Source: Arthrobacter sp. TMP15 (GTDB lineage Bacteria > Actinomycetota > Actinomycetes > Actinomycetales > Micrococcaceae). From it: DNA of 64,000 nt. The position numbers were made by a program, and so were the translations under genes. Below the pieces are notes generated by a model that worked only from the letters and a program-made list of their open reading frames with translations, searched no databases and was not told the DNA's origin. The DNA is taken from positions 682,001-746,000 of the forward strand of contig NZ_CP154262.1 of NCBI RefSeq assembly GCF_039529835.1, in the 5' to 3' direction. Positions 13,120 to 29,423 of this stretch are shown here, piece after piece. Numbering within the stretch: the first letter of the stretch is position 1; each line of letters opens with the position of its first letter.

Positions 13120-14448
13120 CTAATAAGGGAGCATAAAAATTTCTCGATGTTGATCAGCGGAGGCAAATTTCGGTAGCACGAGCTTTTTCAAAAAAGCGGT
13201 ATCACCGGTGGTCAGTGCCCAGTCAAGCAACTCTTGACGCATGGATTCAAGCACTGGTTCATGGTCCCGCTCAACGGCCAGGTTTCGCTGTTCGCCGGGG
13301 TCTATGTCCAGATTATGCAGCTGCTCCCGATTCCTACCCCAGCTGTACACAACATATTTCCAATTTCGCAGAATAAGTGCCCGCCCGGTGGTTCCTGCGC
13401 CGGGAAGCGCAGCCCCATCGCTAAATGAGGTTTGCACCACCACCGGAGCGGTTGTGGCTTCCAGCACAGAGGGTACGGCGAGTCCCCCCGGAGCTGGAAT
13501 CCCCGCCACCTGGCACAGGGTCGGCAGGAGCCCCAGAACCGCCGGGACGGGTGCGTCGATCACCGCAGCGCGCTGCCCCGGAACATGTACCATGAACGGC
13601 ACCTTGATGCATTCTTGGTATAGCGCGGTCTTTTGGTTCCAGGCATGAGAGGCATCGCCGTCGCCGTGATCGCTAATTAGTACGACGGCGGTGCTTGCCA
13701 AATCGATCCGCTCCAGCAGTTGCCCCATGCGTTGGTCAACGCGCTCCACAAGTGCCGCGTACACATGCCGGTAACCTCGCCATTCATCGGGGCTGAAACC
13801 GTTGGTGCCATAGACGCGTGCGGCTGCCACTTGCTCCATGGATAGTGCCTCCGGAGAATAAGGCGCAGGAGGAAAATTTGCAGGCAGGGCAGGGGCGTCC
13901 GCCACGGGGACAGGGGGTATGTTTCCGTACGGCATCGGCTGGGAGCGGGCGTATTCACAGATCGTGTGGGGGTCATCGAAGGAAGCAACCAAGAAGAAGG
14001 GACGGGTATCTTTCCTGCCGTCCAGCCAGGTACTGCAGGCCTGAACCAAGCCCTCGTCACCGAAGGGGTGGATGGGGGTGAAACCGTCAGCCTCCGTGGC
14101 ACTGGCTTGGAGGGCGTGCCATTTTCCTGCATATGCGCAGTCATACCCGGCCGCTGTGAACCAGTGCCCCAACGAGTTTGTTCCATGTCCGGGTTCCTCG
14201 GTGGGCTCCGCGCCCGCAGGGGATGCCTTCGCATTGGAAATGACCCCCAGCTGGTGCGGATACCGGCCGGTGACCATGGCGCTGCGAGCCGGCACGCATA
14301 AAGGAAAGGGCGTGTACGCCTGCGTAAAAGTTGTCGATGACGTGGCCAGCCGGTCAAGGTGAGGAGTGCGGAAGTGCTCATCCGTGGAGCGGACCCGTGT
14401 CAAAGCATGAGCTGCAAATTCATCCGCCATGATCAGTAAGATATTCAT
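13120..14448 (-). CDS. sulfatase (Cys-type, formylglycine-dependent)
   Basis: Predicted to remove sulfate esters from a carbohydrate. The 442-residue protein has the metal-binding N-terminus LLIMADE, the maturation motif CVPAR with Cys51 as formylglycine precursor, the TGRYPHQLG block, and a second metal site VLISDHGDG. There is no signal peptide, so it should act in the cytoplasm. It is the last gene of a five-gene operon with an ABC importer; its start overlaps the stop of the preceding sulfatase by four bases (ATGA). The exact substrate linkage cannot be read from sequence. Confidence 0.93.
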   Translation of the reverse strand: MNILLIMADEFAAHALTRVRSTDEHFRTPHLDRLATSSTTFTQAYTPFPLCVPARSAMVTGRYPHQLGVISNAKASPAGAEPTEEPGHGTNSLGHWFTAAGYDCAYAGKWHALQASATEADGFTPIHPFGDEGLVQACSTWLDGRKDTRPFFLVASFDDPHTICEYARSQPMPYGNIPPVPVADAPALPANFPPAPYSPEALSMEQVAAARVYGTNGFSPDEWRGYRHVYAALVERVDQRMGQLLERIDLASTAVVLISDHGDGDASHAWNQKTALYQECIKVPFMVHVPGQRAAVIDAPVPAVLGLLPTLCQVAGIPAPGGLAVPSVLEATTAPVVVQTSFSDGAALPGAGTTGRALILRNWKYVVYSWGRNREQLHNLDIDPGEQRNLAVERDHEPVLESMRQELLDWALTTGDTAFLKKLVLPKFASADQHREIFMLPY

Positions 14449-15872
14449 GCGCTAGCCACCAAATCCCGCAGAGCTGGTGCTCCGGTCCATTGCTGATCGG
14501 CTGCAGAAAGTGCTTCCTCCAACGCCGCAGCATGACTGCGCACCAACACCGGGTCTGAGATGTTGTCAAGCTCGAACGGATCGTCCACCAGATTGTATAG
14601 GCCAGTGGTGAGGCCACGTTCGGGATGGAAACCCGCAATGAACTTTGTGGTGCGGGTCCTGAGGCCGCGAAGGTCCTCGTCTTCGGCATTTCGTGGATAG
14701 TAGAAGTACAGTGCCGCTTCCCCGTCGTCCGGGGCTAGACCCGCTCCTGTGCACAGCAGGGGTGCTAGGTTGCGGCCGTGCATCTGGGCTGGAATGCTGT
14801 GGGCAACGCCAAGCAGCCCCAAAAGAGTAGGGGCAATATCCACGCTGGAAAGTACCGTGGTGGCGGCGGCTTTGGCAGAGAACTCTTCGGGGCCGCGCAT
14901 CACAAAGGGGATGCGCATGGACTCTTCGTAGGGCACATTTTTGTACAGCAGGCTGTGGCTGCCCATCTGTTGCCCATGATCGGAGGTAAAAATGACAAGG
15001 GTATTCCGGGCCAGATCCAGTTCCTCAAGAGCCTGAAGCAACCGCCCCACTTGGACGTCAATGGCACTGACGGCTGCGTAATATAGCGCGGCTATGCCTG
15101 CCGCTTCCCGGCTAATGTCAGAATCCAGATCAACGTTGGGCCGGTTGAGCAGCTCCGAAGCGGGCAGCCCGGCATAGCTGGTGTCATAGCCTTCGGGGAG
15201 TTGGTCGAAGGGCTGGTGCGGCGGGTTCCAGGACACGGTGAGGGCAAACGGCGCGCCGCCGGGTGCTGTGCCAGAGCCGCCGGGTGCTGTGCCGGCCCTG
15301 CGCAGGAAGTCCAGTGCCACATCCGTTTCATGCCCGGCTGACCAGCCCTGAACGTCCACCCGCTCATGCCGTTCGGCGTGGCCGGTCCAATAATGCGGGG
15401 TCAAGTGCTCGTCACAGCAGCCGTAGGAGTACCAAAAATCAAAGCCGTGCCGCCGGTCAAGGGGGGAGTAGGCATCCCAGTAGCGGCCATCTTCCAAGGG
15501 CCCGGTGCCGTAAATCGCATCGGCAGGAACAGGTGCCTCCAAGTGCCACTTGCCAATGTATCCGGTGGCGTAGCCGGCATCCCTGAGCACGGCAGCCCAT
15601 GACGGGGCGTCGGGGCGAAGCCCAACACCCCACGTAGCAGTTTCAGAGTTCACATTGTGTGTGACTCCATTGGCGGCAGGGTATTGCCCGCTCATCATCA
15701 TGGCCCGGTGCGGGCTGCACACCGGGTAGCTGCTAACAGCGTGGGCCAGGGATACGCCGTCGGACGCCAAGGCATCCAAAAAGGGGGTGGAAACCGCATC
15801 GCCGCCCGGCTCCAGGCACATGGCCCGGAACTGGTCAGCGATCACGAACAGCAGATTTGGTTGTTCTACCAT
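14445..15872 (-). CDS. sulfatase (Cys-type, formylglycine-dependent)
   Basis: A second sulfatase of 475 residues, distinct in sequence from its neighbour. Motifs are LLFVIADQFRA at the N-terminus, VCSPHR with Cys52 as the formylglycine precursor, SGQYPAANG, and IFTSDHGQQMGSH for the second metal site. A small duplicated stretch encodes GTAPGGSGTAPGG at about residues 194-206. No signal peptide is seen. ATG 15872 starts seven bases after the permease gene stop. Position inside the importer operon argues that both sulfatases act on the imported sugar. Confidence 0.93.
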   Translation of the reverse strand: MVEQPNLLFVIADQFRAMCLEPGGDAVSTPFLDALASDGVSLAHAVSSYPVCSPHRAMMMSGQYPAANGVTHNVNSETATWGVGLRPDAPSWAAVLRDAGYATGYIGKWHLEAPVPADAIYGTGPLEDGRYWDAYSPLDRRHGFDFWYSYGCCDEHLTPHYWTGHAERHERVDVQGWSAGHETDVALDFLRRAGTAPGGSGTAPGGAPFALTVSWNPPHQPFDQLPEGYDTSYAGLPASELLNRPNVDLDSDISREAAGIAALYYAAVSAIDVQVGRLLQALEELDLARNTLVIFTSDHGQQMGSHSLLYKNVPYEESMRIPFVMRGPEEFSAKAAATTVLSSVDIAPTLLGLLGVAHSIPAQMHGRNLAPLLCTGAGLAPDDGEAALYFYYPRNAEDEDLRGLRTRTTKFIAGFHPERGLTTGLYNLVDDPFELDNISDPVLVRSHAAALEEALSAADQQWTGAPALRDLVASA

Positions 15873-15879
15873 TGGGGTT

Positions 15880-16803
15880 CTACTTGCCCATCCCCAAGGT
15901 CAGGCCCTCCGTCAGGCGACGGCCCAGCCAGATGTAGATGGCCAGCATGGGCAGGATCACGATGCATAGACCCGCAAAGAGTCCGCCCCAGTCTGCACCG
16001 GAGTAGGTCTGCTGCTGAACGAACGAGATCAAGGCTACTGGCAGAGTGTACTTTTCGGTGCTCTGGAGCAGGGTCAGCGCCAGCAGGGTTTCATTCCAGC
16101 TCCCCACCACCAGCAGCACAAAGGCGGTGAGGATGCCACCTTTGGCCAGGGGCAGGGTGACCTGGATAAAGGTGCGCAGGGCGGACGCGCCGTCCAGTGC
16201 AGCCGCTTCCTCCATTTCAAGGGGGAGACTGCGGAAGAAGGCCGTCAACAAAAAAACCGTGAATGGCAACGACAAACCGATGTAAACCAAGTTCAAGCCG
16301 ATCAGGCTGTTGGTCAGGTGCACCTTGTCCAACATGACAAAGAGCGGAATTAAGATGACCTGGGCTGGGATTCCCAGTCCAAGAATGAAGTACAAGCTCA
16401 GGCCATCGGTGAGACGGTTCTCCACCCGGCTGAGGTAGTAGGCGGCAGGTGCGGCCACGGCCACGCACACGAACGAGGACACCGCCGTGGTCAAAACACT
16501 GTTAAGCGTGGCCAACGCGAAACCGCTGACATTCCAGGCCGTGGCGAAGTTATCGAAGTTGAACGATGTTGGCAGACCCCATGGGCTTTCCAAGATTGCA
16601 TGGGTGTCGCGGAAGGCCTGCAGCACTGTCCAGACGAGCATGGCGATGAATAACACCACCACAGCCCACAGAATAAACACACCGAGGCTGCGGACCCAGT
16701 TGTGATCGGCCTGCAGGGCGGGACTGACGCCGCCACGGTTTCTTTTGCGACGGATTGGCGGTGGAGCGGCTTTCTCGGATGGAGACGAGGTAAGGGTTGT
16801 CAT
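15880..16803 (-). CDS. carbohydrate ABC transporter permease (MalG type)
   Basis: One of two membrane subunits of a carbohydrate importer. The 307-residue protein has six predicted helices and the permease-ATPase coupling loop EEAAALDGASALRTF (EAA motif) near residue 210. It follows the MalF-type permease after nine bases. No ATP-binding subunit is encoded here. Actinobacterial sugar importers of this class commonly share a multitask MsiK-like ATPase encoded elsewhere, which is the likely arrangement. Confidence 0.94.
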   Translation of the reverse strand: MTTLTSSPSEKAAPPPIRRKRNRGGVSPALQADHNWVRSLGVFILWAVVVLFIAMLVWTVLQAFRDTHAILESPWGLPTSFNFDNFATAWNVSGFALATLNSVLTTAVSSFVCVAVAAPAAYYLSRVENRLTDGLSLYFILGLGIPAQVILIPLFVMLDKVHLTNSLIGLNLVYIGLSLPFTVFLLTAFFRSLPLEMEEAAALDGASALRTFIQVTLPLAKGGILTAFVLLVVGSWNETLLALTLLQSTEKYTLPVALISFVQQQTYSGADWGGLFAGLCIVILPMLAIYIWLGRRLTEGLTLGMGK

Positions 16804-16812
16804 GAGGATTCC

Positions 16813-17778
16813 TTAGAACTCAATGGCGTCACGGCGCATGGCACGGCGCAGGAGCACCACCAGTACGGTAACCAAGGCCAAAGAAATGATGGCTGATGCT
16901 GTGGCGGCACCATAGGCCGGGGTGGACATGCCGGAGAACGCTGTGACGTAGGTGTACACGGCCACGGACCAGGTTTGGGTGGGTGGCAGGCCCGCGCCGC
17001 TGCTGCCGCCAAAGACCCAGATGATTTCAAAGATCTTGACGGAGGAGATTGTCCACAGCACGGCACAAGTGCCGAAAACGTCCCAGGTCAGCGGCAGAAT
17101 GACGTACCGGAGACGCTGGAGCGCTGTTGCGCCGGCAAGAGCGCAGTCCTCATAGAAGTAAGGCGGGATCCTGTCTACTCCGGCCATGATGATGGTGGTG
17201 AAGTAGCCTGTGGTGGTCAGGACCATGGTGGCCATGATCAACGGAAAAATATTGTCCTGGGCAAGCCAAGCCGGCGGTTCCGTGACACCCAAAGGCTTGA
17301 GCAGGCTGTTGACCATGCCACCTGGGTTGAAGATGAAACCGGCCAGGATGCCAAAGACAAGAGCATTGATCAGATGGGGGAAAAAGATGACGTTGCGAGC
17401 TATTCTCTTTGCAGCCATGTCCCGAAGAACCAGCGTCATGGCAAAGGCCAGGATGAAGATTGCCGCACCCACCACGAACAAAAGGAGCAGCGTGTTTCCG
17501 AAGGACTTCAAGAACAACGGGTCTTGGAAGACTTTAACGTAGTTCTTGAAACCCACGAAGGTCATGGGACCAGAACCGGCCCATTCGTTAAGACTGATCC
17601 AGAGTGCCGCTATCGTGGGAACGATGAACAAGACGGTGTAGAAGAGGAAAGCCGGTCCGACGAACGGTACCAGAAGCTTGCGGCGCTGGCGTTCAATGCT
17701 GCTTCCGCCCCGGCCCTGCCCCGGCTTGAGAGCCGGAGCAGGGTTGCGACGGGTGCGCTTGAGAGTCGAGGCAGACAT
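16813..17778 (-). CDS. carbohydrate ABC transporter permease (MalF type)
   Basis: The second membrane subunit, 321 residues, with a basic N-terminus (about residues 1-35), six helices and an EAA-like loop (YEDCALAGATALQRLR) near residue 225. Its start codon overlaps the stop of the solute-binding protein gene by one base, so translation is probably coupled. It forms a heterodimeric channel with the MalG-type protein. Confidence 0.94.
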   Translation of the reverse strand: MSASTLKRTRRNPAPALKPGQGRGGSSIERQRRKLLVPFVGPAFLFYTVLFIVPTIAALWISLNEWAGSGPMTFVGFKNYVKVFQDPLFLKSFGNTLLLLFVVGAAIFILAFAMTLVLRDMAAKRIARNVIFFPHLINALVFGILAGFIFNPGGMVNSLLKPLGVTEPPAWLAQDNIFPLIMATMVLTTTGYFTTIIMAGVDRIPPYFYEDCALAGATALQRLRYVILPLTWDVFGTCAVLWTISSVKIFEIIWVFGGSSGAGLPPTQTWSVAVYTYVTAFSGMSTPAYGAATASAIISLALVTVLVVLLRRAMRRDAIEF

Positions 17779-19082
17779 TAGCCCTGCGCCTTCCAGTAAG
17801 CGATGGTCTCCGACTTCATTTTGGAGACAAACTCGCCGGCATCAATCTTGCCCAGGAACAACTGATCATCGGTCGGGTTAAAGTTCTTCTCCAAGTAGCC
17901 CGGAGCGGTGACACCATCGTTGCCCAGGTAGATCTCCTTGGCGCCGTCAATGTTCTTCTTAAGCGCGGCGAGCTCCGGTGAAATAGCGGCATCTGCGCGG
18001 ACGGGAAGGACCTTGGCTACTGTGCCCATAGCGTCCTGGTTCTTCTTGTTCATCAGGAACGCAGCCAACTCCTGGGCGGCGGCAGGATTCTTTGCCTTCT
18101 TGGGAATGGCGAAGCCGGTGAAGTCCGTGCGTGCCATGCTGGGCTGGCCGGCTACGGCCGGGTACGGAAAGGATTCATACTTGAATCCGGGTGAGGCGTA
18201 CGTGCCAGTCTCCGTGGGGATCCAGGAGCCGTTGAAGAGCAGATCTGCCCCGCCGGTGGCCCAAGCCTGCTGCTGAGCAGGCCACTTGCTGGCGTTGTAG
18301 CCATTGATCAGGTAACCGTTGTCCACGAGCTGCTGCACCGTTTTGGCTGCGGCCAGTACTGCGGGGGAGTCCCAGCCGGCGCCCGACTTATCAGTGACAA
18401 TCTTGTTGAACGCACCGGGGCCCTCGCTGTGGACTAGTGCGCTGACGAACCAGTAGGCGCTGTAGCCGGCAATGTCACCGTCTGCAGCAATGGGTGTCTG
18501 CCCGGCGGCCTTTTGCTTGTCAAGGAGACTTATAAAGTCCTCCCAAGAGGCCGGGGGGTTCGTCACCAGGTCCGGGTTCTTCTCGGCGTCGAACCAGATG
18601 CCGTCCGAAGTGAGGCTGTAGGGCACCATCCACGGTTCGCCGTCTTTGCCTTTGATGTTGCTCACGGCGGCGAACTTGGTCGGAATGAGCTCGGAGAGCT
18701 TCTTGCCGTCGATCTCGGTGTTATAGGCATCCGTCATGGGCAGTGCCTGTCCGGTGCTGCCCAGGGCGATATCAAGGTTGGCGTTGGAGCCGTCAATGAT
18801 GTCCGGGACGTTATTGGTGTTCAGTGCAGGAATGATCTTTTTCGTGTTGGTGCGGCCCTGCCACTGCACGTCAACCTTGTTGCCGGTTTCCTTTTCGAAA
18901 TCGGCGATGGCGCTTGCGAGTACTTTTTGCTGTGCCTCGCCAACCTTCCACATGGACCAGTACGTCACTGTACCGTTGTCCTTTGCTCCGGCGTCGCTGC
19001 CGCCACCTCCGCAGGCCGTCAGGGCCATTGATGCGCCAGCCAGCACGGCCAACGTTTGTACAATTCTGGATTTAGTACTCAT
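17778..19082 (-). CDS. carbohydrate ABC transporter solute-binding lipoprotein
   Basis: A 434-residue extracellular sugar-binding protein of the family 1 type. The signal peptide ends at the lipobox LTACGGGG near residue 24, so the mature protein is lipid-anchored. The body has the usual two-lobe signature, including KKIIPALNTNNVPDI. ATG 19082 is preferred because GAGG lies about eight bases upstream; the GTG at 19091 overlaps that site. It is the first gene of the operon with two permeases and two sulfatases, and so is likely specific for a sulfated oligosaccharide. Confidence 0.93.
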   Translation of the reverse strand: MSTKSRIVQTLAVLAGASMALTACGGGGSDAGAKDNGTVTYWSMWKVGEAQQKVLASAIADFEKETGNKVDVQWQGRTNTKKIIPALNTNNVPDIIDGSNANLDIALGSTGQALPMTDAYNTEIDGKKLSELIPTKFAAVSNIKGKDGEPWMVPYSLTSDGIWFDAEKNPDLVTNPPASWEDFISLLDKQKAAGQTPIAADGDIAGYSAYWFVSALVHSEGPGAFNKIVTDKSGAGWDSPAVLAAAKTVQQLVDNGYLINGYNASKWPAQQQAWATGGADLLFNGSWIPTETGTYASPGFKYESFPYPAVAGQPSMARTDFTGFAIPKKAKNPAAAQELAAFLMNKKNQDAMGTVAKVLPVRADAAISPELAALKKNIDGAKEIYLGNDGVTAPGYLEKNFNPTDDQLFLGKIDAGEFVSKMKSETIAYWKAQG

Positions 19083-19159
19083 AGAAGACACCTCGTGAAG
19101 TTGTTGTGCCGTAGATCACGACTCAGTGACATGACTCAAACAGTCAGCAAAGATAGGAA

Positions 19160-19174
19160 TCAAGGTGTACTTGA
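19160..19174. promoter_or_regulatory. possible operator in the divergent promoter region
   Basis: TCAAG-GTGTA-CTTGA is a perfect short palindrome between the importer operon and the GntR-LacI regulator gene. It is of the size expected for a GntR-type binding site. The assignment is by position only. Confidence 0.35.
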
Positions 19175-19231
19175 AAACTAATTTGAAATTTGTGAAACGT
19201 CTCGGAGTTAGGTAGACCGTAAAATTGGCGG

Positions 19232-19269
19232 AATATTGGACTTAAGCGGCAGCTTTAAGGTTCAATATT
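19232..19269. promoter_or_regulatory. imperfect inverted repeat upstream of the GntR-LacI regulator
   Basis: AATATTGGAC..TTAA at 19232-19246 is repeated in reverse complement as TTAAGG-TTCAATATT at 19255-19269, with single-base gaps. It lies in the 295-base divergent region 19083-19377 that must hold promoters for both the importer operon and the regulator. It may be an autoregulatory site. Confidence 0.4.
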
Positions 19270-19377
19270 GCTAATTACACCTTTATTCATTACTTATACA
19301 TCTGTCATGCTCATCACAAGTGGGGTCGAAGCGTGCCCGCCACCACATGATGAGTAGACAGTGAGGAGAAGTGCACC

Positions 19378-20517
19378 GTGACTAGACGGACAAAATCCGG
19401 GACCGTGCGTGACACTGACTCCCGTGAACTGAAGTTTCAGGCACTGGCCGATGAGCTCCGTCGCGGTATTTTGGCCGGCACATGGGCGGCAGGAGCCAAG
19501 TTGCCCACCGAAGCCCAGCTTGCTGCCGAGACTTCTTTGTCCTTGACAACTGTCAGGCGTGCTTTCGATGAACTTGTGCAGGAAGGAATTGTTGTTCGCC
19601 GCCAGGGTGCGGGAAGTTTCGTCTCGGAACGTCCACTGGCGCGCCGCCGAACTCGGCTGCGGGTGGGGGTTCTGCTGCCGGACACTCAACTGTATTATCC
19701 GCGCGTACTCAAAGGTATCGAAGAAACACTCTCTGCCCACGATGTTTCACTGCAACTCTCAACCTACAATTACGAACCGGAACGAGAAAATGCAAGTATT
19801 GACTTCCTCATCGACTCTGGTGTTGACGGACTGATTCTTGTGCCTACTCTGAGCGGGATCGGGGATCCGCAGCAGCGGGTTCGTGAACTGGCTGCACTGA
19901 ATGTGCCAGTGGTTCTTTTGGAGCGCAGCCTGATGGATCTGGGGCCGGGGGACAGGACCGAGCACGTGTGCTCGGATCACCAAGGTGGAGCGTACGACGC
20001 CGTCCGTCACCTTGTCGATTTAGGTCACCGCAGGGTGGGGTTGCTGACACGCAGCCATACTCCCACCGAACCGGCCATTGTGGCCGGCTACGAACGCTGT
20101 GCCAAGGATCTGGGTTTTGCCCCGTTGGTGCTTCCGGCACCGAGGGAGGAGTGGGAAGCTGGCGAAGCTGAACACATGCTGGACCAACTTCGCGCCGCTG
20201 GGATCACAGCTGCCCTGGTTTTCGGTGATAGGGAAGCAACATTTTTGGAAGCTGCAGCACGCCGAGCCGGAATTAACATACCCGAAGAGCTGGCCCTTGT
20301 CTCCTACGATGACGAATTAGCGGACCTTGCCGAGGTCCCCTTGACTGCTGTGGCACCTGCCAAGCACAGGATGGGAAAAATGGCTGCGGAGATCCTACTC
20401 CGCCGTCTGGTGGAGGGTGATGACTGCCCTATCCACCAAGTCCGGCTGCGTCCGCGGCTGGTTATTAGAGAATCTTGCGGTGCCAAGAGGCAATCCGCGC
20501 AGCACGAAGAGGAATGA
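19378..20517 (+). CDS. GntR-LacI hybrid transcriptional regulator (AraR-like)
   Basis: A 379-residue sugar-responsive regulator. Residues about 15-80 form a GntR winged helix (LPTEAQLAAETSLSLTTVRRAF-like, bases about 19501-19566); from residue 97 on there is a LacI/periplasmic-binding ligand domain (GVLLPDTQLYYPRVLKGIEE through VSYDDELADLAEVPLTAV). The same combination is known from the arabinose repressor AraR. GTG 19378 has GAGGAG upstream. Divergent from the importer operon and seven bases upstream of the oxidoreductase gene, it probably controls the sulfated-glycan island, with a sugar released by it as inducer. Confidence 0.92.
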   Translation: MTRRTKSGTVRDTDSRELKFQALADELRRGILAGTWAAGAKLPTEAQLAAETSLSLTTVRRAFDELVQEGIVVRRQGAGSFVSERPLARRRTRLRVGVLLPDTQLYYPRVLKGIEETLSAHDVSLQLSTYNYEPERENASIDFLIDSGVDGLILVPTLSGIGDPQQRVRELAALNVPVVLLERSLMDLGPGDRTEHVCSDHQGGAYDAVRHLVDLGHRRVGLLTRSHTPTEPAIVAGYERCAKDLGFAPLVLPAPREEWEAGEAEHMLDQLRAAGITAALVFGDREATFLEAAARRAGINIPEELALVSYDDELADLAEVPLTAVAPAKHRMGKMAAEILLRRLVEGDDCPIHQVRLRPRLVIRESCGAKRQSAQHEEE

Positions 20518-20523
20518 GTGTAA

Positions 20524-21516
20524 ATGCGATTGGGAATTGTTGGCGCAGGCGCCGTAGCTGGCCTCCACGCACATGGCGCATCGGTCCTTGACGGCGTTGA
20601 GCTAAGCGCTGTTTGTGATTTACAAGAGGATGTTGCCGCAGCCGTTGCTCAACAGTGGGGCGCTGCCGTCTTCACGGACTACAACACGATGCTAGCTGCC
20701 GGAGCGGTGGATGCGGTTGTTATCAATACCCCGCACAGTCTGCACAAGGATATGGTTCTGGCGGCAGCCGCACACGGTGTTCATGTGCTCGTAGAGAAGC
20801 CTATGGCAACGACCCTTGCCGACTGCATCCTTATGGAAAATGCTTGTGCCAGTGCCAACGTAGTCATGGTGATTGGCATGATCCAGCACTTTATGTCGGA
20901 GAAGATGGCGACTCAGAAAGCACTGAAGAGCGGGAAGCTGGGACGGGTATTGATGATCCATGACTACCGCAGTACCGACTACCGTCCCGGCACACGCCCA
21001 GAGTGGTTCTTTGACAAGGCTGTTTCAGGAGGTGGAGCACTGATCAACATTGGTGCTCACTGTTTGGATCGCAGTCTTTGGATAGGAGGGGCCCCAGCGG
21101 TAAAAATAACTGCCACCACGCTCAGCCGATTTGGCGCCGCTGTTGAAACCGACGGTGCCATGGAACTGCGACTGGCCAATGGCGTTCAGTTGCGCGTCAC
21201 GATCGTTTCTGACACACCCCGACACATTGATGAGATGCTAGTTGTGGGCGAGTTTGGCACCATCACAGTTGATCCACGGCATGGAACGTTCATGGAAATT
21301 AACGGCGTGCGGAGTACTTTGCACACCACGAGCGCGGATGACATCCAAAACGCTTTCACCGCACAGTTGGCCGATTTCGTTGCCGCTGTGGGCGGAGCGG
21401 AACCCAGTGTGAGCATTGAACACGCCAAACATGTGGTGGAACTGGTACTTGCCGCCTACGACTCCGCAAGCACTGGTGCGCCGGCGGTGTTGGCGTCTAC
21501 CCTGGCATCAGCGTGA
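20524..21516 (+). CDS. Gfo/Idh/MocA-family oxidoreductase
   Basis: A 330-residue NAD(P)-dependent dehydrogenase. The N-terminal Rossmann fold starts with GIVGAGAVAGLHAHG, followed by the family motif VEKPMATTLADC near residue 97, whose Lys is catalytic, and a C-terminal domain with GGALINIGAHCLDR containing the conserved His. It follows the regulator gene closely and its stop overlaps the DUF2264 start as TGATG. Members act on sugars, inositols and glycosides; here it probably oxidises a carbohydrate from the imported glycan. Confidence 0.92.
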   Translation: MRLGIVGAGAVAGLHAHGASVLDGVELSAVCDLQEDVAAAVAQQWGAAVFTDYNTMLAAGAVDAVVINTPHSLHKDMVLAAAAHGVHVLVEKPMATTLADCILMENACASANVVMVIGMIQHFMSEKMATQKALKSGKLGRVLMIHDYRSTDYRPGTRPEWFFDKAVSGGGALINIGAHCLDRSLWIGGAPAVKITATTLSRFGAAVETDGAMELRLANGVQLRVTIVSDTPRHIDEMLVVGEFGTITVDPRHGTFMEINGVRSTLHTTSADDIQNAFTAQLADFVAAVGGAEPSVSIEHAKHVVELVLAAYDSASTGAPAVLASTLASA

Positions 21517-23438
21517 TGAACTTGCCCAGCCCCGACTGGGCACAAGCTCCTTTTACAGGTTTGAGCCGGGCTCACTGGGAGGCGGCAGCCGATGAACAAA
21601 TCGCTGCGGCCAAGAGATATTCCTCTCCTCGTGGCGCTCAAGTGCATTTCCCCAGTGTGTATGAACAGAGCCCGGATGAGCTCCTGGAAGGCTTTGCAAG
21701 AACATTTTTGTTGGCGGCGCTTCGTCTCTCCGGTGCTGCCGGCGATGGCGGTCCAGCGGCAGAAGTAACGGCACAGCTGGCGCAGTGGTATGCCCAAGCC
21801 CTCGATGCAGGCACTGATCCATCTTCAGATGAACGCTGGCCAAAACTGACAGCTCATTCGCAAACCACTGTGGAGGCCACAGCCGTGGCGCTGGGACTCC
21901 ACCTGAGCCGGAAATGGATTTGGGCTGTGGTGCCGCAAAGAGTGCGGGATAACACTGCCGCATGGCTGGGGGATTCGGCTCAATCTTTCGGAGCCGACAA
22001 CAACCACGTCATGTTCGCCGCAACGATCCAAGCTTTTCTGGGTTCTGCAGGCTACGCGTACGACGGTGCCGGAATCGAAGCCGCGCTGGCCAGGATAGAG
22101 GATTGGTATGTGGGCGACGGCTGGTACTCAGATGGTGAGGGTCGCCGGTTCGACCACTACAACGCCTGGACCTTCCATGTGTACCCCTTCTTCATCCTCG
22201 ATTTGTTGGGGGAGGATGCAGCCACGGGGCGCAGGAAGGTCTACCGGGACCGACTGGGACAGTTTGTGCATGGCTACAGCCATCTCTTTGGTGCAAATGG
22301 GGCACCTTTGATTCAAGGCCGCTCCTTGCTGTATCGCTGGGGTGTTGCCGCCCCCTTCTGGATGGCGATGCGGGAAGGAATCACGGTGGTTTCCCCCGGT
22401 CAAACCCGCCGAATTGCCTCGGGGGTGCTGAAATACTTTCTCGACGGCGGGGCTGCTCCGGATGGCGTACTTACTCTGGGTTGGCATGAAACCAACAGCA
22501 GTATTTTGCAGTCGTACAACGCACCGGGTTCCCCGCAGTGGGCCGCCAAGGGCTTTTTGGGATTGCTGCTGCCCGCTGATCATCCGGTTTGGACTGAACA
22601 AGAACAGCCTTTGCCTGTTGAGCAAGGGGACTACACACTACCGATGAGCGGACCCGGCTGGTTGGCTGTTGGCACCGCTGCTACAGGAACTGTGCGGGTG
22701 CTTAACGCCGGAAGTGACGGACACCCGCAAAAGGATGATCCACTGTACCGACGCTTGGCATTTTCCACCTCAACTGTTCCTTGGCTGGAACCCGGCTCGG
22801 GCGAGCGAGATAACGATATTTTCATTAGACACGACGGCTCCAGTAGCAGGCATCGAGGCCTGCACGGAGGCAGTGTCCGCTCCGGTGGCGGATCCAGTAC
22901 CTTCGCGTTGGATGCTGCCGGCAGGGACGTTTTGGTCCAGAACTCCTTCGCCGTGCTCGACGGCGTGGAAGTCCGGGCAGCCAAGCTCACCGGTGTGGTG
23001 GGACTTACACCCGCCCTCTCCGGCTACCTGTGCAGCACCGATGCGGCCCCGGAAACCCTTGTTAATGGTGGAGGGGCCCAGGTCGGCATCAAGCCCGGGG
23101 CGCTCTCCAGTGTCCTCCTATTGGAGGCCACTGCGGAGGCGGAGCCCCACGTTGTTCATGGCGAGGGCACCATACTTGGCGCACACTCTGGGTTGCCACT
23201 GCTGCAATTCCCGCCGCTGGCCTCCAACGAACTCACGCTGATGGCACTCATTGGCCTGGATGTGACATTGGCCCGTCTGCGCTCAATGGCGTTGGAGCTT
23301 CAATGGCAGTGGGCACCGGACGGGGTGCAACTGCGGTTCAGAAACCGCACTGTAGTTTTGCCGTGGCAACGAAAAGCAACTTGGCCGGCCGATTCCATCA
23401 ACCAAGGCGTTTTCCGTTGGAACCCACCCGAAAATTAG
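21516..23438 (+). CDS. DUF2264-domain protein (putative glycan-active enzyme)
   Basis: A 640-residue cytoplasmic protein. The N-terminal two-thirds match DUF2264, with an early segment FLLAALRLSG, then LGDSAQSFGADNNHVMF, DGWYSDGEGRRFDHYNAW and FGANGAPLIQGRSLLYRWG, an aromatic-rich pattern typical of an alpha/alpha barrel. The C-terminal third is beta-rich. As I recall, some DUF2264 proteins are linked to exo-beta-glucuronidase activity (GH154), but I cannot confirm that this protein belongs there. ATG 21516 overlaps the upstream stop; a GTG one codon earlier is possible. Context says it processes the imported sulfated oligosaccharide. Confidence 0.88.
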   Translation: MNLPSPDWAQAPFTGLSRAHWEAAADEQIAAAKRYSSPRGAQVHFPSVYEQSPDELLEGFARTFLLAALRLSGAAGDGGPAAEVTAQLAQWYAQALDAGTDPSSDERWPKLTAHSQTTVEATAVALGLHLSRKWIWAVVPQRVRDNTAAWLGDSAQSFGADNNHVMFAATIQAFLGSAGYAYDGAGIEAALARIEDWYVGDGWYSDGEGRRFDHYNAWTFHVYPFFILDLLGEDAATGRRKVYRDRLGQFVHGYSHLFGANGAPLIQGRSLLYRWGVAAPFWMAMREGITVVSPGQTRRIASGVLKYFLDGGAAPDGVLTLGWHETNSSILQSYNAPGSPQWAAKGFLGLLLPADHPVWTEQEQPLPVEQGDYTLPMSGPGWLAVGTAATGTVRVLNAGSDGHPQKDDPLYRRLAFSTSTVPWLEPGSGERDNDIFIRHDGSSSRHRGLHGGSVRSGGGSSTFALDAAGRDVLVQNSFAVLDGVEVRAAKLTGVVGLTPALSGYLCSTDAAPETLVNGGGAQVGIKPGALSSVLLLEATAEAEPHVVHGEGTILGAHSGLPLLQFPPLASNELTLMALIGLDVTLARLRSMALELQWQWAPDGVQLRFRNRTVVLPWQRKATWPADSINQGVFRWNPPEN

Positions 23439-23482
23439 CGTCATCAACAAAAAATAACCAGTATTGGACCTCAGTGAACATC

Positions 23483-25303
23483 ATGAATTTTCCAACCAGC
23501 AATGGGACGCGGGATCGGCCAACCGAGGGTAATTTCCTGAACATACCTTCGACGCTCCCCGCAAAATCGACCAAGTCTGCCTTTGCCGCACCAACGGCCG
23601 ATGAAGGCATCCACGGCCCATCGGTGGTGCGCCAAGGCCCCGAAGACATTGCGCGGCGGCAGCCATGGGCGGAGTCAAAATTTGGTTTCTTTGTGCACTG
23701 GGGCATATCCGCCACTCTGGGTGGGCTCTGGGAAGGAAAGCACGTTGAAGGGCTGGCCGAATGGATCCAATTCAAGGCCAAAATCCCCCTTTCCGAGTAT
23801 GCCGAGCTGGCCAAGTCATTCAACCCCACTGAATTCAATGCCCGGGACTGGGTCCGCACGGCCGCGGAAGCTGGGGCGAAGTATTTTGTGTACACAGCCA
23901 AACACCATGACGGATTCGCCATGTACCACTCGCAGGTATCCGCCTATAACATCGTTGACGCCACACCGTTTAATCGCGACCCGTTGGCCGAAATAGCCCA
24001 AGCCTGTGACGAGTATGGCGTCATGTTGGGAATCTATTACTCCCAAACCATCGATTGGGAAGACCCGGATGCGGTGGGGCCCAGCTGCAATAGCTGGGAC
24101 TTCGACACCGATGAGGGAGACTTTCAGCGTTACTGGCGTCGCAAGGCAGCGCCGCAGCTACGCGAAATCCTGAGCAACTATGGCAGCATCGGACTGATGT
24201 GGTTTGACATGCCCCGTGGCATCCCTGCCGAATGCGCCCAGGAAGCGTTCAACCTGGTGCGGGAACTGCAACCGGGCGCCGTCATCAACAGCAGACTTGG
24301 TGGAGGAGTTGACGCCGATTACAACTCCATGGATGACAATTACTTCAATAACTTCCTGCCTGCGCAGGCGTGGGAGACGGCTGCCACCACCAACGACAGC
24401 TGGGGATTCTCCCAGCTGGCATCGGGCTGGAAGCCGGTAGCCAGCCTCTGTGAGACTCTGGCCTACACGGTGAGTCGCGGCGGAAATCTGCTGCTCAACG
24501 CCGGGCCCGACGCCAACGGCGCCATTCCAAAGCAGGCCCAGGAGCAGTTCGCGGGCATCGGAACCTGGATGCAGCGAGCGGTTCCGGCCATCCGCGGCGC
24601 CGGACCATCGCCCTTTCCCGCCACCTTTGACTGGGGCCAGGTAGCTACCCGCGGATCCTCGATTTATCTGCACGTTACCGATTCTGGAAAAAAGGAACTG
24701 TCCCTGAACGGTATTACGGTAGCGCCTGACTCCGTGCGTGATCTTGGCGCAGGCTCCCTGCTGAACTTCTCCCTGAATGAAAGCAGCGGTGCGGGGCCGC
24801 TTCTGACTCTGGAACTGGCTGAGCCCACCGATGACCTTCCGCGGACGGTAGAGCTGACTTTCGCCAAGGCCCCGATTATCGCCCAGGATATTAGGCAGGT
24901 CCCAGGATCACCGCTTCGACTTGATATATGGAACGCTGAAACTGGCCCCGATGAATCACTGCGCTGGAGCTTCACGATGGCTTCCCCGGGCGAGTACCGT
25001 GTGGTGCTGCTGAGCAAGGAAACGTTCGGCAATTTCAACCCGCAATGGTGGGCCGATGGCTTGACGGGGACGCTGGAAACGGAAACTGGCCGCACCCCGT
25101 TCACGCTGCACAGGGACGGCGACGAGCTTTACCCGATCCTGCATTATTGGAAGGTGGTGCGCAGCGAGATTGGGCGAATCACCGTGTCCGGGCAGGGACA
25201 ACAGAACCTGAGCATCAAAGATCTGCCCGTTGTTGACTCGAAATGGGATCCAGCGGGAGTGAACATGATCGGGTTGAGACTTGAGCTCATCACGCCAGCG
25301 TAA
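23483..25303 (+). CDS. alpha-L-fucosidase-like glycoside hydrolase (GH29)
   Basis: A 606-residue enzyme. The GH29 barrel starts near residue 60, with KFGFFVHWG, the active-site HHDGF at 141-145, and IGLMWFDMPRG, where Asp242 occupies the position of the GH29 nucleophile. A beta-rich C-terminal region runs from about 395. The general acid is poorly conserved in GH29 and is not identified. No signal peptide is seen. ATG 23483 is used; a GTG at 23474 is possible, and the longer frame reaching back into the DUF2264 gene is rejected. It probably releases L-fucose, or a related deoxysugar, inside the cell. Confidence 0.88.
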   Translation: MNFPTSNGTRDRPTEGNFLNIPSTLPAKSTKSAFAAPTADEGIHGPSVVRQGPEDIARRQPWAESKFGFFVHWGISATLGGLWEGKHVEGLAEWIQFKAKIPLSEYAELAKSFNPTEFNARDWVRTAAEAGAKYFVYTAKHHDGFAMYHSQVSAYNIVDATPFNRDPLAEIAQACDEYGVMLGIYYSQTIDWEDPDAVGPSCNSWDFDTDEGDFQRYWRRKAAPQLREILSNYGSIGLMWFDMPRGIPAECAQEAFNLVRELQPGAVINSRLGGGVDADYNSMDDNYFNNFLPAQAWETAATTNDSWGFSQLASGWKPVASLCETLAYTVSRGGNLLLNAGPDANGAIPKQAQEQFAGIGTWMQRAVPAIRGAGPSPFPATFDWGQVATRGSSIYLHVTDSGKKELSLNGITVAPDSVRDLGAGSLLNFSLNESSGAGPLLTLELAEPTDDLPRTVELTFAKAPIIAQDIRQVPGSPLRLDIWNAETGPDESLRWSFTMASPGEYRVVLLSKETFGNFNPQWWADGLTGTLETETGRTPFTLHRDGDELYPILHYWKVVRSEIGRITVSGQGQQNLSIKDLPVVDSKWDPAGVNMIGLRLELITPA

Positions 25304-25367
25304 GAAGGGTTGCCGGGACCCCGAGCGCCCCCTGCTATAACCCTGACACCGGGTTGAACCAGGGGGC

Positions 25368-26834
25368 CTAGGCTCCGTCCCAAAAAGGTGCGTTGAAAGC
25401 ACCCAGCGGATCCGGGCTTCCCTCGGGGAATGCCAGTGGGCTGTGCTGGCCGGCTCCGGCAACGGCCAGCGCAGCACCATCAAACTCTGGCACACCGTGC
25501 TGTGCGAACCAGCCAGCCATGCGCGAACGCAAACCTGCCAGCGCGGGGTGGGGTTCGGCGTCGTCCATCAAGTTCACACGCTCGCCGGGATCTGCGGCCA
25601 GATCGTAGAGCTCATGCGGACCGTGGGGGTGGCGATGGACATACTTGCGGTCCTGCGTACGGATCATCCGTACGGGCCCGTACTCGTCATAAACCACGAC
25701 GGCGGAATCCGCACGCGCCGCCGAACTCGCCACGTCATCGGCGCTGAGCTCCAAGAGCGGGGCAAAGGAGCGTCCCGGGCCGGTTTCAAAAGGCGTTGGG
25801 TCCAGCCCCACCAGCGCCAAAATGGTGGCGGCGACGTCGTACGCCGAGAGCAGCTCCGCGCGCACCGGGCCGGCAGCGATACGCCCGGGCCAGTTGAAAA
25901 TGGCAGGGACCTTCACGGAGGAATCGTACATATTTTGTGGGAAGGTGCCATTGCCCTTGCCCCACACCCCGTGATGGCCGGCGTTAAAGCCGTTGTCGCT
26001 GCTGAAAACAATCAGCGTATTCTCGCGCACGCCCAGACGCTCCAGATGGTCTATGACATCACCGATGGCAGCATCCATGGCGCTGACAGCTGCAAAATAC
26101 CCAACCAACGCAGCGCGCACATCCGGTTCCCCGCCAACAGCCACCCCATCCACTGTGGGCTGCCACGGATGCGGCTCCTCCTGCGGGCAGCTGGCAAAGG
26201 CACAATCGGCGTAGAGATCCTCAAATTCCTTGGGGTGCTGGCCTTTCCACGGCTTGTGGGGGGCCGTGTAGTTGATGGCCAAAAAGAACGGTTCATCCCG
26301 GGCGGCCTCCCGGTCCAGGAACGCGTGCGCATCCTCGGTGATGGCATCCGTGAGGTAGGTGCTGGTTTCTTCGCGCTCGCCGTTACGGTACATGGTGGCG
26401 CCGGTGTAGGGACTGCCGCCGCCTTCAAGCCCATACCAGTGCACAAAACCTTTACGGGGGGCGTCATTGGCCCCCAAATGCCACTTTCCCGAAAGCCCCA
26501 TCCGGTAGCCGTTATCCGCCAACACGTCGGTGAAGATCTGTTGGCCCGCCAGGTAATCCGGTGCTTGGGCGCCCACTTCAATCCCGGTGAGATAGTCGTG
26601 CACGCCGTGTCTTGACGGGATCTGCCCGGTCATGAGGCTGGCACGGGCGGGGGAGCAGACCGGTGAGACGCAAAAGAAGTTCTCCAACCGGGTGCCTTCG
26701 GATGCCAAAGCATCAAGAACCGGGGTATGAATATCCTCGTTGCCAGCGCAACCCAGTGCCCAAGGTCCTTGGTCATCACTAAGGATAAAAACAATATTGG
26801 GCGACGTGGACAGTTTGGTTGACGAACCGGTCAT
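25368..26834 (-). CDS. sulfatase (Cys-type, formylglycine-dependent)
   Basis: The third sulfatase, 488 residues. Motifs are NIVFILSDDQGPWALG, VCSPARASL with Cys60 as formylglycine precursor, SGKWHLG, and VFSSDNGFNAGHHG for the second metal site. No signal peptide is seen. Start choice: GAGGAG places the second of two adjacent ATGs (26834) at the best spacing. The frame could extend to 26861, but that GTG lies inside a perfect palindrome that looks like an operator. It is divergent from the TIM-barrel gene and convergent with the fucosidase gene. Confidence 0.93.
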   Translation of the reverse strand: MTGSSTKLSTSPNIVFILSDDQGPWALGCAGNEDIHTPVLDALASEGTRLENFFCVSPVCSPARASLMTGQIPSRHGVHDYLTGIEVGAQAPDYLAGQQIFTDVLADNGYRMGLSGKWHLGANDAPRKGFVHWYGLEGGGSPYTGATMYRNGEREETSTYLTDAITEDAHAFLDREAARDEPFFLAINYTAPHKPWKGQHPKEFEDLYADCAFASCPQEEPHPWQPTVDGVAVGGEPDVRAALVGYFAAVSAMDAAIGDVIDHLERLGVRENTLIVFSSDNGFNAGHHGVWGKGNGTFPQNMYDSSVKVPAIFNWPGRIAAGPVRAELLSAYDVAATILALVGLDPTPFETGPGRSFAPLLELSADDVASSAARADSAVVVYDEYGPVRMIRTQDRKYVHRHPHGPHELYDLAADPGERVNLMDDAEPHPALAGLRSRMAGWFAQHGVPEFDGAALAVAGAGQHSPLAFPEGSPDPLGAFNAPFWDGA

Positions 26835-26852
26835 CATTGCTCCTCTTACGAC

Positions 26853-26881
26853 GTGGAACACTAGTCATATCAGTGTTCCAC
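26853..26881. promoter_or_regulatory. perfect 10-bp inverted repeat, candidate operator
   Basis: GTGGAACACT (26853-26862) and AGTGTTCCAC (26872-26881) are perfect reverse complements with nine bases between. The site sits 19 bases upstream of the sulfatase start in a divergent promoter region. Size and symmetry fit a dimeric repressor. Confidence 0.65.
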
Positions 26882-26932
26882 GGGAGGACTCAAGGGGTAC
26901 TTCAGGTTCTTTTTCTTAGCTTCTAACATTGA

Positions 26933-26948
26933 TGGAAAGCGTTTTCCA
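26933..26948. promoter_or_regulatory. LacI-family-type operator
   Basis: TGGAAAGCGTTTTCCA is a 16-base palindrome with one mismatched pair and a central CG, close to the general LacI/GalR-family site pattern. It lies 44 bases upstream of the chosen start of the TIM-barrel gene. The regulator at 19378 has a GntR, not LacI, DNA-binding domain, so a different LacI-type protein may act here. Confidence 0.6.
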
Positions 26949-26991
26949 GACTATTCTTGAACAAGACCCGCAACCCGTTGAAAGGCGCATC

Positions 26992-27927
26992 ATGCCATTG
27001 GCGTTCTCCACCCTGGGCTGCCCAGGGGATTCCCTTGCCCAAGTTATTGCTACAGCCCACAACGCCGGAGCCACCGGACTTGAGCTGCGCGCGGCGGCGG
27101 GCGAGTTTGTGTATCCGCAGATGGATGCGGCCCAGCGAGCGGCTTTGGCCACCGAGCTGGCCGACGCCGGCCTGACGGTACTTGCGCTGGCTAGCTACGT
27201 CCGCATTTGTGCGCCCACAGGTACCGCCGGCAACGGTACTTATGGTGAGGCCGGTACTTTCGGTGAGGACGGCGCGAACGATCCGGTGCTCGCGGAACTA
27301 CTGGCCGCCGTCGACCATGCCGCAGAGCTTTCCGCCCAAAACCCAGGGCAAGGACAGTGCGCCCAACTGCGGGTGTTTCCCGGTGCAGGTCTGGAGCCCA
27401 CACAGCGGGGGGTCGAACCTTCTCCTGAAATGGCTGCTGCGGATCTCCGTGGTGCACGCCGGCTTAATGCTGCGGCCAGCCATGCCACAGCATGCGGGGT
27501 AAAAATTTTGTTGGAGACGCACGATTCGCACCCTCGTGCTGCAGATGTTTGCCGAATATTGGCCCACGTGGATGCCGCTGCGCCGGTTGGGGTCATTTGG
27601 GATCTCATGCACCCTTGGCGGTATGACGAAGCGCCGGAGGTGACTGCCTCGCTGCTGACCGATTGGCTGGCCTATGCCCAGTTCAAGGATGGGGTGCGGC
27701 AACCGGGCTCGCACACAGTTACGCTCACGCTGCCGGGGGAGGGCGAGCTTCCTCTGGCTGCCATGCACGCCCTGGCGCAGAAGATCGCTTCAGATCACGG
27801 AAATTCGGACCCGTGGATTTCACTTGAGTGGGAGCGTGCCTGGTATCCGGAGCTACCCCACGTCTCCACTGCGCTGGCCTCGCTTAAGACGGCACTGGCC
27901 GAACCTGAGAATCAAAACAGCAAGTAG
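26992..27927 (+). CDS. sugar phosphate isomerase/epimerase-like TIM-barrel protein
   Basis: A 311-residue member of the xylose-isomerase-like barrel superfamily. It opens with LAFSTLGCPGDSLAQ and has likely metal ligands in LLETHDSHP, VIWDLMHPW, YAQFKDG and ISLEWE. A Gly-rich insertion (residues about 75-95) is unusual. ATG 26992 is preferred over TTG 26929 because an operator-like palindrome lies between them and homologues start at this point. It lies between two sulfatase genes and reads toward the next. Possible roles are epimerisation of a released sugar or the elimination step of an oxidative glycoside-cleavage pathway. Confidence 0.85.
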   Translation: MPLAFSTLGCPGDSLAQVIATAHNAGATGLELRAAAGEFVYPQMDAAQRAALATELADAGLTVLALASYVRICAPTGTAGNGTYGEAGTFGEDGANDPVLAELLAAVDHAAELSAQNPGQGQCAQLRVFPGAGLEPTQRGVEPSPEMAAADLRGARRLNAAASHATACGVKILLETHDSHPRAADVCRILAHVDAAAPVGVIWDLMHPWRYDEAPEVTASLLTDWLAYAQFKDGVRQPGSHTVTLTLPGEGELPLAAMHALAQKIASDHGNSDPWISLEWERAWYPELPHVSTALASLKTALAEPENQNSK

Positions 27928-27968
27928 TTTTAGCCGGACAGAATCGCACCCGAACTAAGGATTTTTTC

Positions 27969-29423
27969 ATGCCGTCCAAGAATGCACAGCGCCAGCCCAA
28001 CATCATGATCATCATCTCCGATGACCACGGCTATGCCGACCGTTCCATTCTGGGCGTGCAAGCTGATGTGAGCACTCCGGCCCTTGACCGACTGGCAGCA
28101 GAAGGGGTCTCCTGCAGCAATGCCTACGTCACGGCACCCATTTGCTCCCCGTCGAGGGCGGGGTTGGCGGCGGGCAGCTATCAGCAGCGCTGGGGTGCTC
28201 GGTGGTTCACCGATTCCGAGATTTCGCCAGCCAATGTGCCAACTATTGCCGAACTGATGCGGGCACAGGATTACACCACCGGCTACTTCGGCAAAGTGCA
28301 CTATGGCACCGAACATCATGGGGACCGCGGCACTCCGCCCCAGCATGGTTATGACGAATCGTTCTACGGCCTCGCCGGGGAATCCATGGGCCGGCTCAAT
28401 TACCTGCACCACTCAGAAGAAGCCGTTGATGAGTATGGTGAGGCGGCAGGTCCCATGGCTGTCCAGCCACTGTGGAATGGTGAGGAACCCCAAGAGTTGG
28501 AAGGCTTCCTCACCGATGCCATTGGCGAACGTACCCGGGAGTTCGTGGCTGAACATGCCAACAAACCGTTTCTGGCAACTGTTGCGTTCAACGCCGTCCA
28601 CAACTTTTGCTGGCAGCTACCTGCGGATGAACTAAAGAAACGCGGGCTGCCAGCCTATGAAGATTGGAATCCCGGAGCAAGTCAGTACCTTGACTGGTAC
28701 GACGGCGCCATCAGTCCCCACCTGGAAAATGGTAGAGCGTATTACCTGGCTCAGCTGGAATTGATGGATGGGCAGATCGGGCTGATACTGGACCAGCTTG
28801 ATGAGTTGGGGCTTGCCGAAGACACGATCGTCATATACCTGACGGACAATGGTGGTTCCACCTGCAACTACGGAGTCAATTTGCCTCTGCGCGGCACTAA
28901 ATACACGCTGTGGGAAGGCGGAGTGCGGGTGCCGTTTATTCTCCGTTGGCCCAACAATGTTCGCGCAGGCACCACTCATGCTGGCCTCACCAGTGCCATG
29001 GATATTGTGCCTACGGCGCTCGCGGCTGCTGGGGCGGACCCTGCCGTGTACGCCCACTGCGACGGGCGGGATTTGCTGGGCCGGGATTTGCTGGGCGCAT
29101 CCTGTGAAGCAGGTATGAGTGATTCACAAGGTTTCCTGCAGGGCGGGCACGAAGCTCTTCATTGGGATTGCGGCTGGCAATGGTCGGTGCGTAAAGGCGA
29201 CTGGAAGCTGCAGTGGGTGGAGCCTGAATCGCCGGTGGCAGACGCCATCCGGGATGTTGAGCGTGCCGAACCTGGCAGCGGTTACTTCCTGTGTAATCTG
29301 GCAGCCGATCCAGCAGAAACCACTAACTTGCACGACGCCGAGCCTGCCTTGGTAGCCGAACTCACCGCTCTGCACCAGGCATGGGCTGCTGGCGTGAACG
29401 GGGAACACTCACTGTCAGTGTGA
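27969..29423 (+). CDS. sulfatase (Cys-type, formylglycine-dependent)
   Basis: The fourth sulfatase, 484 residues. Motifs are NIMIIISDDHGYADRS, ICSPSRAGL with Cys59 as formylglycine precursor, YFGKVHYG, and VIYLTDNGGS for the second metal site. It lacks a signal peptide. A short internal duplication, GRDLLGRDLLG, occurs at about residues 360-370. ATG 27969 has AAGGA upstream. It follows the TIM-barrel gene after 41 bases and is probably co-transcribed with it. With the three others it suggests sequential removal of several differently placed sulfates. Confidence 0.93.
   Translation: MPSKNAQRQPNIMIIISDDHGYADRSILGVQADVSTPALDRLAAEGVSCSNAYVTAPICSPSRAGLAAGSYQQRWGARWFTDSEISPANVPTIAELMRAQDYTTGYFGKVHYGTEHHGDRGTPPQHGYDESFYGLAGESMGRLNYLHHSEEAVDEYGEAAGPMAVQPLWNGEEPQELEGFLTDAIGERTREFVAEHANKPFLATVAFNAVHNFCWQLPADELKKRGLPAYEDWNPGASQYLDWYDGAISPHLENGRAYYLAQLELMDGQIGLILDQLDELGLAEDTIVIYLTDNGGSTCNYGVNLPLRGTKYTLWEGGVRVPFILRWPNNVRAGTTHAGLTSAMDIVPTALAAAGADPAVYAHCDGRDLLGRDLLGASCEAGMSDSQGFLQGGHEALHWDCGWQWSVRKGDWKLQWVEPESPVADAIRDVERAEPGSGYFLCNLAADPAETTNLHDAEPALVAELTALHQAWAAGVNGEHSLSV

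Follow-up and report, generated by a model that had tools for sequence, protein, structure and literature searches.

We analysed a 64,000-nucleotide stretch of Arthrobacter sp. TMP15 (contig NZ_CP154262.1, positions 682,001 to 746,000 of the forward strand), hereafter called the window, and focused on an island of 12 genes at window positions 13120-29423, which a preliminary description had read as a unit for the intracellular use of a sulfated oligosaccharide. A Pfam search confirmed all the named genes at their coordinates: four Cys-type sulfatases, each with a CxPxR motif, an ATP-binding cassette (ABC) importer, a GntR-LacI type regulator, and GH29, DUF2264, Gfo/Idh/MocA and TIM-barrel genes lie together. 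PF00884 was found in four proteins (4e-38 to 2e-47), DUF2264 at 1e-101 and Alpha_L_fucos at 1e-73, and the further domains were BPD_transp_1 (twice), SBP_bac_1, GntR with Peripla_BP_3, GFO_IDH_MocA and AP_endonuc_2.

The first five genes lie on the minus strand. The sulfatases S1 (13120-14448, motif CVPAR) and S2 (14445-15872, motif CSPHR) are both predicted to be cytoplasmic from their N-termini. The nearest full-length solved relatives of S1 were 3b5q and 5g2t (2-O-glycosaminoglycan sulfatase; E about 1e-33), and S2 is related to the chondroitin/dermatan sulfate 4-O-endosulfatase 6j66 (2e-90) and the endo-4-O-sulfatase 6s21 (5e-75). They are followed by an ABC permease (15880-16803), a second permease (16813-17778) whose BPD_transp_1 score of 25.3 bits is just under the curated cut-off of 26.4, and a solute-binding protein (17778-19091) that is a predicted lipoprotein with a lipobox-like LTAC motif. 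The plus strand then carries the regulator (19378-20517), the Gfo/Idh/MocA oxidoreductase (Gfo, 20524-21516) and DUF2264 (formerly GH154, 21513-23438). After 44 bases (23439-23482), at the place where relatives hold at least one gene of polysaccharide lyase family 8 (PL8), comes GH29 (23483-25303, plus strand). Its mechanically called open reading frame (ORF) starts at 23303 and overlaps DUF2264; we reassigned the start to 23483. When this form is compared with relatives, the similarity sets in somewhere between residues 1 and 39. The best solved match of GH29 was an alpha-L-fucosidase. S3 (25368-26861, minus strand, motif CSPAR), the xylose-isomerase-like TIM barrel (TIM, 26929-27927, plus strand) and S4 (27969-29423, plus strand, motif CSPSR) complete the island. 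The nearest solved relatives of S4 were an exo-4S kappa-carrageenan sulfatase (1e-49) and an N-acetylgalactosamine-6-sulfatase entry (1e-44).

By eye and hydropathy, no hydrophobic signal segment was found at the N-termini of the four sulfatases, DUF2264, GH29 or TIM, in agreement with the preliminary description, and import of short sulfated glycans followed by processing in the cytoplasm is still the best reading. The Pfam search found no SusC/SusD pair of the Bacteroidetes polysaccharide utilisation loci among the 12 island proteins.

We then compared 22 islands: 20 from a sample of 295 genomes of the family, one from Pseudarthrobacter sp. AL07 (L067) and one from Micromonospora sp. MP36 (L069). 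Two of them belong to one species, that of the window genome (G000) and assembly G157. The 20 genomes are a lower bound, found through DUF2264 (12) or through PL8 neighbourhoods (8); the latter were read in 26 of the 32 PL8 genomes (all but G019, G047, G054, G086, G097 and G114), and islands with neither gene would escape detection. The three profile searches of 295 genomes were treated as one and the same sample. The binding protein, both permeases, the regulator and Gfo occurred in 22/22 islands, as did S2 (including a contig-edge fragment in MP36), and S3 and TIM occurred in 21. PL8 of either type was present in 19 islands, S1 in 17, and DUF2264 and S4 in 14 each. GH29 is optional, being confined to seven islands in one part of the tree, with a 31% partial GH29-like match in MP36 left uncounted. 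Absences are unsure in G070, AL07 and MP36, whose stretches end at a contig or locus edge. The recurrence of the core genes and of much of the gene order in 22 islands indicates that the grouping is not due to chance. Two genes, S1 of G170 (L052, 9761-11055) and a permease of G263, are each split into two overlapping pieces, by decay or sequencing error.

A response-regulator gene at 12322-13035 had a homologue in 17/17 stretches of the window's genus. Its distance to the closest island gene is at most 212 bases in 14 of these and 1.4-5.3 kb in the other three, G277, G284 and G231. Within this genus, the island occupies one chromosomal address. Carriage on plasmids was considered and rejected: a plasmid collection gave distant S2 homologues only (seven records, all below 60% identity).

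In many of the relatives' islands, the PL8 genes sit between DUF2264 and GH29 or S3. The AC-type PL8 of Arthrobacter sp. E3 matched the A. aurescens chondroitin AC lyase 1rw9 (E 1.4e-250), and the second type is of the chondroitin ABC type by domain content (Lyase_N, Lyase_catalyt). An RR-type export signal, which we take to be a twin-arginine signal, was present in 13/13 lyase N-termini examined. No PL8 match was found in the window genome or in G157, while 10 of 13 genomes were positive in the same search, indicating that the search works. The earlier suggestion that the strain relies on products of other organisms' lyases is well supported by this difference.

To place the lyase-free islands, five concatenated island proteins were analysed with FastTree. 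G000 and G157 fell beside Arthrobacter sp. H35-D1 (0.963), inside the lyase carriers, and the nodes around the window species had support of 0.96-1.0. PL8 was also found in the deepest branches. A. cryoconiti (G076), which lacks PL8, was on a separate branch, and parsimony gave two losses. The 44 bases after DUF2264 matched the H35-D1 bases directly preceding GH29 with a score of 58 (best of 200 shuffles, 30), and those that follow DUF2264 in H35-D1 with a score of 16. An import-only unit can exist, since two separate lineages carry the island without PL8, and relatives of the window species might have gained their lyases independently of a lineage that never had any. However, the nested tree position, the sharing of neighbouring genes with close relatives and a scar that retains the GH29 upstream flank point to loss and not to original absence, and we regard independent gain as very improbable. 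The window species thus appears to have lost its exported PL8 lyases, with 23439-23482 as the probable deletion scar.

The window DUF2264 and its counterpart in Arthrobacter sp. H35-MC1 share 99% identity. H35-D1, with lyases, and H35-MC1, with none, have a common strain prefix and accession numbers close to each other, a hint that both came from one sample; a literature search on the H35 strain names turned up no paper on where they come from. Further PL8 loci of the family lie in different clusters, and their lyases are 28-36% identical to the island's AC lyase. Neighbours were annotated in three of these (L148, L152 and L139), with a 2-hydroxyacid dehydrogenase in two. L148 (5492-12710, in G024) and L152 represent a second kind of PL8 cluster, with the dehydrogenase beside the lyase, in genomes without a GH88 match; the L148 cluster also holds two large proteins without a Pfam match.

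Chondroitin/dermatan sulfate is a sugar chain of animal cartilage. Because the relatives' islands hold AC-type and ABC-type PL8, we infer that it is the substrate, and in our view the island is very likely a locus for the utilisation of chondroitin/dermatan sulfate that loss of the exported lyases has reduced to scavenging. An importer with predicted cytoplasmic sulfatases for glycosaminoglycan (GAG) pieces, a feature of GAG utilisation clusters, is present. Another feature of such clusters, an extracellular polysaccharide lyase, was not found in G000 or G157 by a genome-wide lyase search that covered the PL8 family. The preliminary description had left the substrate open among fucoidan, ulvan, carrageenan and GAGs, and the neighbourhood comparison favoured the last of these over the algal glycans. 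An island serving fucoidan, carrageenan or ulvan, in relatives of which chondroitin lyases were merely gained, would fit the fucosidase-like GH29 within it and the carrageenan sulfatase nearest to S4. We nevertheless judge this improbable and did not adopt it as the leading interpretation: PL8 extends to the deepest branches, whereas GH29 looks like a later, partial addition, S2 is a relative of GAG endosulfatases, and SulA1, the enzyme that S3 resembles, was reported to be inactive on fucoidan, neocarrabiose sulfates and Gal4S (PMC10972148).

SulA1 is a cytosolic sulfatase that removes the 4-sulfate of N-acetylgalactosamine (GalNAc), acting on the monosaccharide GalNAc4S only and not on delta-disaccharides; it has about 484 residues with D17, D18, C57, H190, D277 and N278, lacks a signal peptide and is encoded beside a PL8 gene (PMC10972148). 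The S3 offsets (DD to C 40, C to H 133, C to DN 220) equal the published SulA1 spacing, with 485 residues on SulA1 numbering. This spacing was kept in three of the five S3 copies checked (G000, G076 and G113). S3 adjoins PL8 genes in relatives only, not in the window. Its probable orthology to SulA1 was deduced from spacing, length and context and not from a comparison with the SulA1 sequence. In addition, S2 had a 37% identical homologue in a Vibrio chondroitin locus, and the AL07 island adjoins SIS, ROK, PfkB and class II aldolase genes.

Several observations weigh against the chondroitin interpretation. The fixed SulA1 offsets miss in the S3 copies of G024 and G192, which have extra residues, and G231 lacks both S3 and TIM. 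S1 and S4 matched solved sulfatases much less strongly than S2 did. Chondroitin breakdown does not require GH29, which is in a minority of the islands. DUF2264 is absent from 8/22 islands, and G024, one of the genomes concerned, gave no DUF2264 match at all. An AgaS-type gene was found in 26/26 genomes searched, including the window genome and six without a known island; AgaS is not diagnostic and was rejected as an island marker. Finally, the GAG pieces taken up by the species might be products of hydrolases and not of lyases.

PL8 lyases leave an unsaturated uronate (delta-UA) on their products, and unsaturated disaccharides are normally split by GH88/GH105. No GH88/GH105 match (PF07470) was found in the window genome, in any of the 13 island genomes of one search, or in any of the 20 from the family sample, in which 9/295 genomes were positive. 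With a base rate of only 3%, absence alone establishes no association with the island. It is notable because 18 of 21 island genomes (the AL07 genome was left out of this count) carry PL8, whose products should need such an enzyme. PF04962 was found in 4/13 genomes; the only copy of the window genome is IolB (272.7 bits, cut-off 205), with the KduI model at 21.3 against 250, so that KduI was not found there; the other three copies were left untyped, and DhuI was outside the search. Only comparison with relatives reveals the lyase loss and the lack of a GH88/GH105 step. No account of GH88-free GAG use was found in the literature searched, mostly as judged from search results and not from full texts. 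Since SulA1 cuts only free GalNAc4S, delta-UA should come off before S3-type desulfation.

We propose DUF2264, Gfo and TIM as candidates for delta-UA removal. It is conceivable, with the chances put somewhat below even, that in Arthrobacter and related bacteria unsaturated chondroitin disaccharides are broken down without GH88/GH105 or KduI by a new island-encoded route, with a His-type DUF2264 as a new unsaturated uronyl hydrolase or hydratase, or with Gfo and TIM eliminating the aglycone, and that two lineages independently dropped their lyases to live off lyase-bearing neighbours.

GH154 (DUF2264) has been recast as a glucuronate dehydratase, and in the Bacteroides caccae enzyme of PUL25, BcGDH, mutation to Ala of each of ten active-site residues gave inactive enzyme (PMC12269599). 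Seven of the eight aligned residues are kept in the window DUF2264, and E74 and R78, which lie before the aligned stretch, were paired on visual inspection with its invariant residues E59 and R63. The full set is not present in the window protein: the position of W178 is H165. It is His in 14/14 island copies and Trp in three solved relatives and in 20/20 non-island copies, chosen from the matches listed in the 295-genome search. An alternative is that DUF2264 is an ordinary BcGDH-like glucuronate dehydratase and that the unsaturated disaccharide is cleaved by the product of a gene elsewhere, a uronyl hydrolase outside PF07470 that has so far escaped recognition. The conserved residues favour this, as does a tendency of DUF2264 to go with the island beyond the in-island copies: within the genus, 7/8 island genomes without an in-island copy had DUF2264 elsewhere, against 1/6 others (Fisher p 0.026, uncorrected for kinship and with islands lacking both DUF2264 and PL8 missed). 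On the other hand, a dehydratase has hardly any task left once a lyase has introduced the double bond, the partner of BcGDH is a GH88 enzyme, a family not found in the island genomes searched here, and all the island copies have His for W178. We consider this alternative unlikely, although appreciably less so than the algal one. Nor can DUF2264 be the general solution, given the eight islands without it and G024 without any; the same facts led us to give up the idea of DUF2264 as the sole, indispensable replacement of GH88.

The nearest solved relatives of Gfo included DgpA and, further down, glucuronide-3-dehydrogenase, among other Gfo proteins. No NCBIfam cut-off was reached by Gfo (best inositol 2-dehydrogenase, 123 bits against 355), and an assignment to GH109 was rejected, the GGHGG loop being present in 0/22 copies. 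A sequence search of the PDB set with TIM found nothing at 0.001. Three motifs that resemble a metal site are kept in most of its 21 copies. The pairing of Gfo with TIM resembles 3-keto-glycoside pathways, which offers a lead and not a test. A TIM relative (32-38% identity) was found near 4/20 Trp-type DUF2264 loci outside the island, so that cooperation of DUF2264 with TIM may be more widespread. One of these loci, L139 (4138-17116, in G255), has a distant PL8, ABC permeases, a Trp-type DUF2264 and relatives of GH29 and Gfo one after another.

From gene content and comparison, the following order of steps may be proposed. Sulfated, unsaturated delta-UA-GalNAc di- or oligosaccharides released by other organisms would bind the lipoprotein and be carried inside by the ABC permeases, and desulfation would be intracellular. 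S2 would act on GalNAc 4-sulfate in oligosaccharides, S3 on free GalNAc4S, S1 probably on uronate 2-sulfate and S4 on the remaining GalNAc sulfate. The delta-UA end would most likely be removed by the His-type DUF2264 and/or the Gfo and TIM pair instead of GH88/GH105, and the same genes would take over the KduI/KduD-type steps. In the alternative, Gfo-dependent form of this route, Gfo would oxidise the allylic C3-OH of delta-UA and a metal-dependent TIM barrel would eliminate the aglycone. GalNAc would be processed via the genus-wide AgaS-type route, and GH29 would trim fucose branches where present.

These sulfatases would be matured by a formylglycine-generating enzyme (FGE)-type protein encoded outside the island. 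The absence of a secreted depolymerase, an L-fucose catabolic gene and an FGE gene, noted in the preliminary description, holds for the island; for FGE it does not extend to the genome (3.72 Mb, 99.98% complete), in which a PF03781 protein (C1:1144561-1145412, 251 bits) was found, in line with the suggestion of maturation encoded elsewhere. Its CHDSYCNRYR segment holds two Cys residues, presumably those typical of FGE. No NCBIfam model exceeded its cut-off (best SenA, 123 bits against 420), and the name FGE follows from the Pfam match and the motif only. PF00884 matched seven times in the genome, four of them in the island; two proteins outside also have the Cys motif, and the seventh match is weak, with internal stop codons. 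The FGE-type gene is separated by about 3 kb from an AgaS-type SIS gene (1148049). The island of Paenarthrobacter sp. PH39-S1 itself includes a PF03781 (FGE-type) gene (L068, 20443-21498, minus strand), near an NMT1-type binding protein gene.

The closest known system is the chondroitin lyase cluster (choA1, sulA1, sulA2) of the marine Arthrobacter MAT3885, whose closest 16S relative is A. cryoconiti (PMC10972148). Its ChoA1 is reported to be active on chondroitin, chondroitin sulfate and hyaluronan (PMC7793863). Like the island, it has a SulA1-type sulfatase without a signal peptide, further sulfatases and sugar genes, and it has PL8 as the window's relatives do, but the window species has no lyase; the portion of the published account drawn on here names no role for an importer, DUF2264, Gfo or TIM and does not ask how delta-UA is removed (PMC10972148). 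This cluster with a cytoplasmic sulfatase means that the locus is not alien to Actinobacteria, which lowers its novelty. The locus is a reduced variant of a known Arthrobacter chondroitin system with an unsolved biochemical step.

The GAG cluster of Streptobacillus moniliformis likewise pairs a sulfatase that is predicted to be cytoplasmic with ABC import, there of unsaturated GAG disaccharides; unlike the window, which has four sulfatases and neither lyase nor GH88, it has PL8, a GH88 unsaturated glucuronyl hydrolase and one sulfatase (PMC5430744). The Vibrio navarrensis plasmid locus (NZ_CP065219.1), source of the 37% identical S2 homologue, has chondroitinase-family lyases and GalNAc (aga) genes. 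It differs in having GH88, KduI, KduD and a phosphotransferase system; searches of the window genome found no GH88 and no KduI. BcGDH, in contrast to the 641-residue, His-type island DUF2264, has W178 and a GH88 partner and was studied as a 400-residue construct (PMC12269599).

Arthrobacter chondroitinases are long-known reagents (PMC7793863). For the use of their products by Arthrobacter, three island genes are now clear candidates, and the His-for-Trp residue gives a sharp test. If true, a GH88-independent GAG route would change the annotation of lyase loci in Actinobacteria, and repeated loss of a secreted lyase with the importer and cytoplasmic enzymes kept would be a clean genetic model of public-goods scavenging.

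Outside the island, an ORF at window positions 9270-10304 (plus strand) joins an RNase H domain (PF00075) to DUF4440, and its homologues cluster in 14/22 island stretches.

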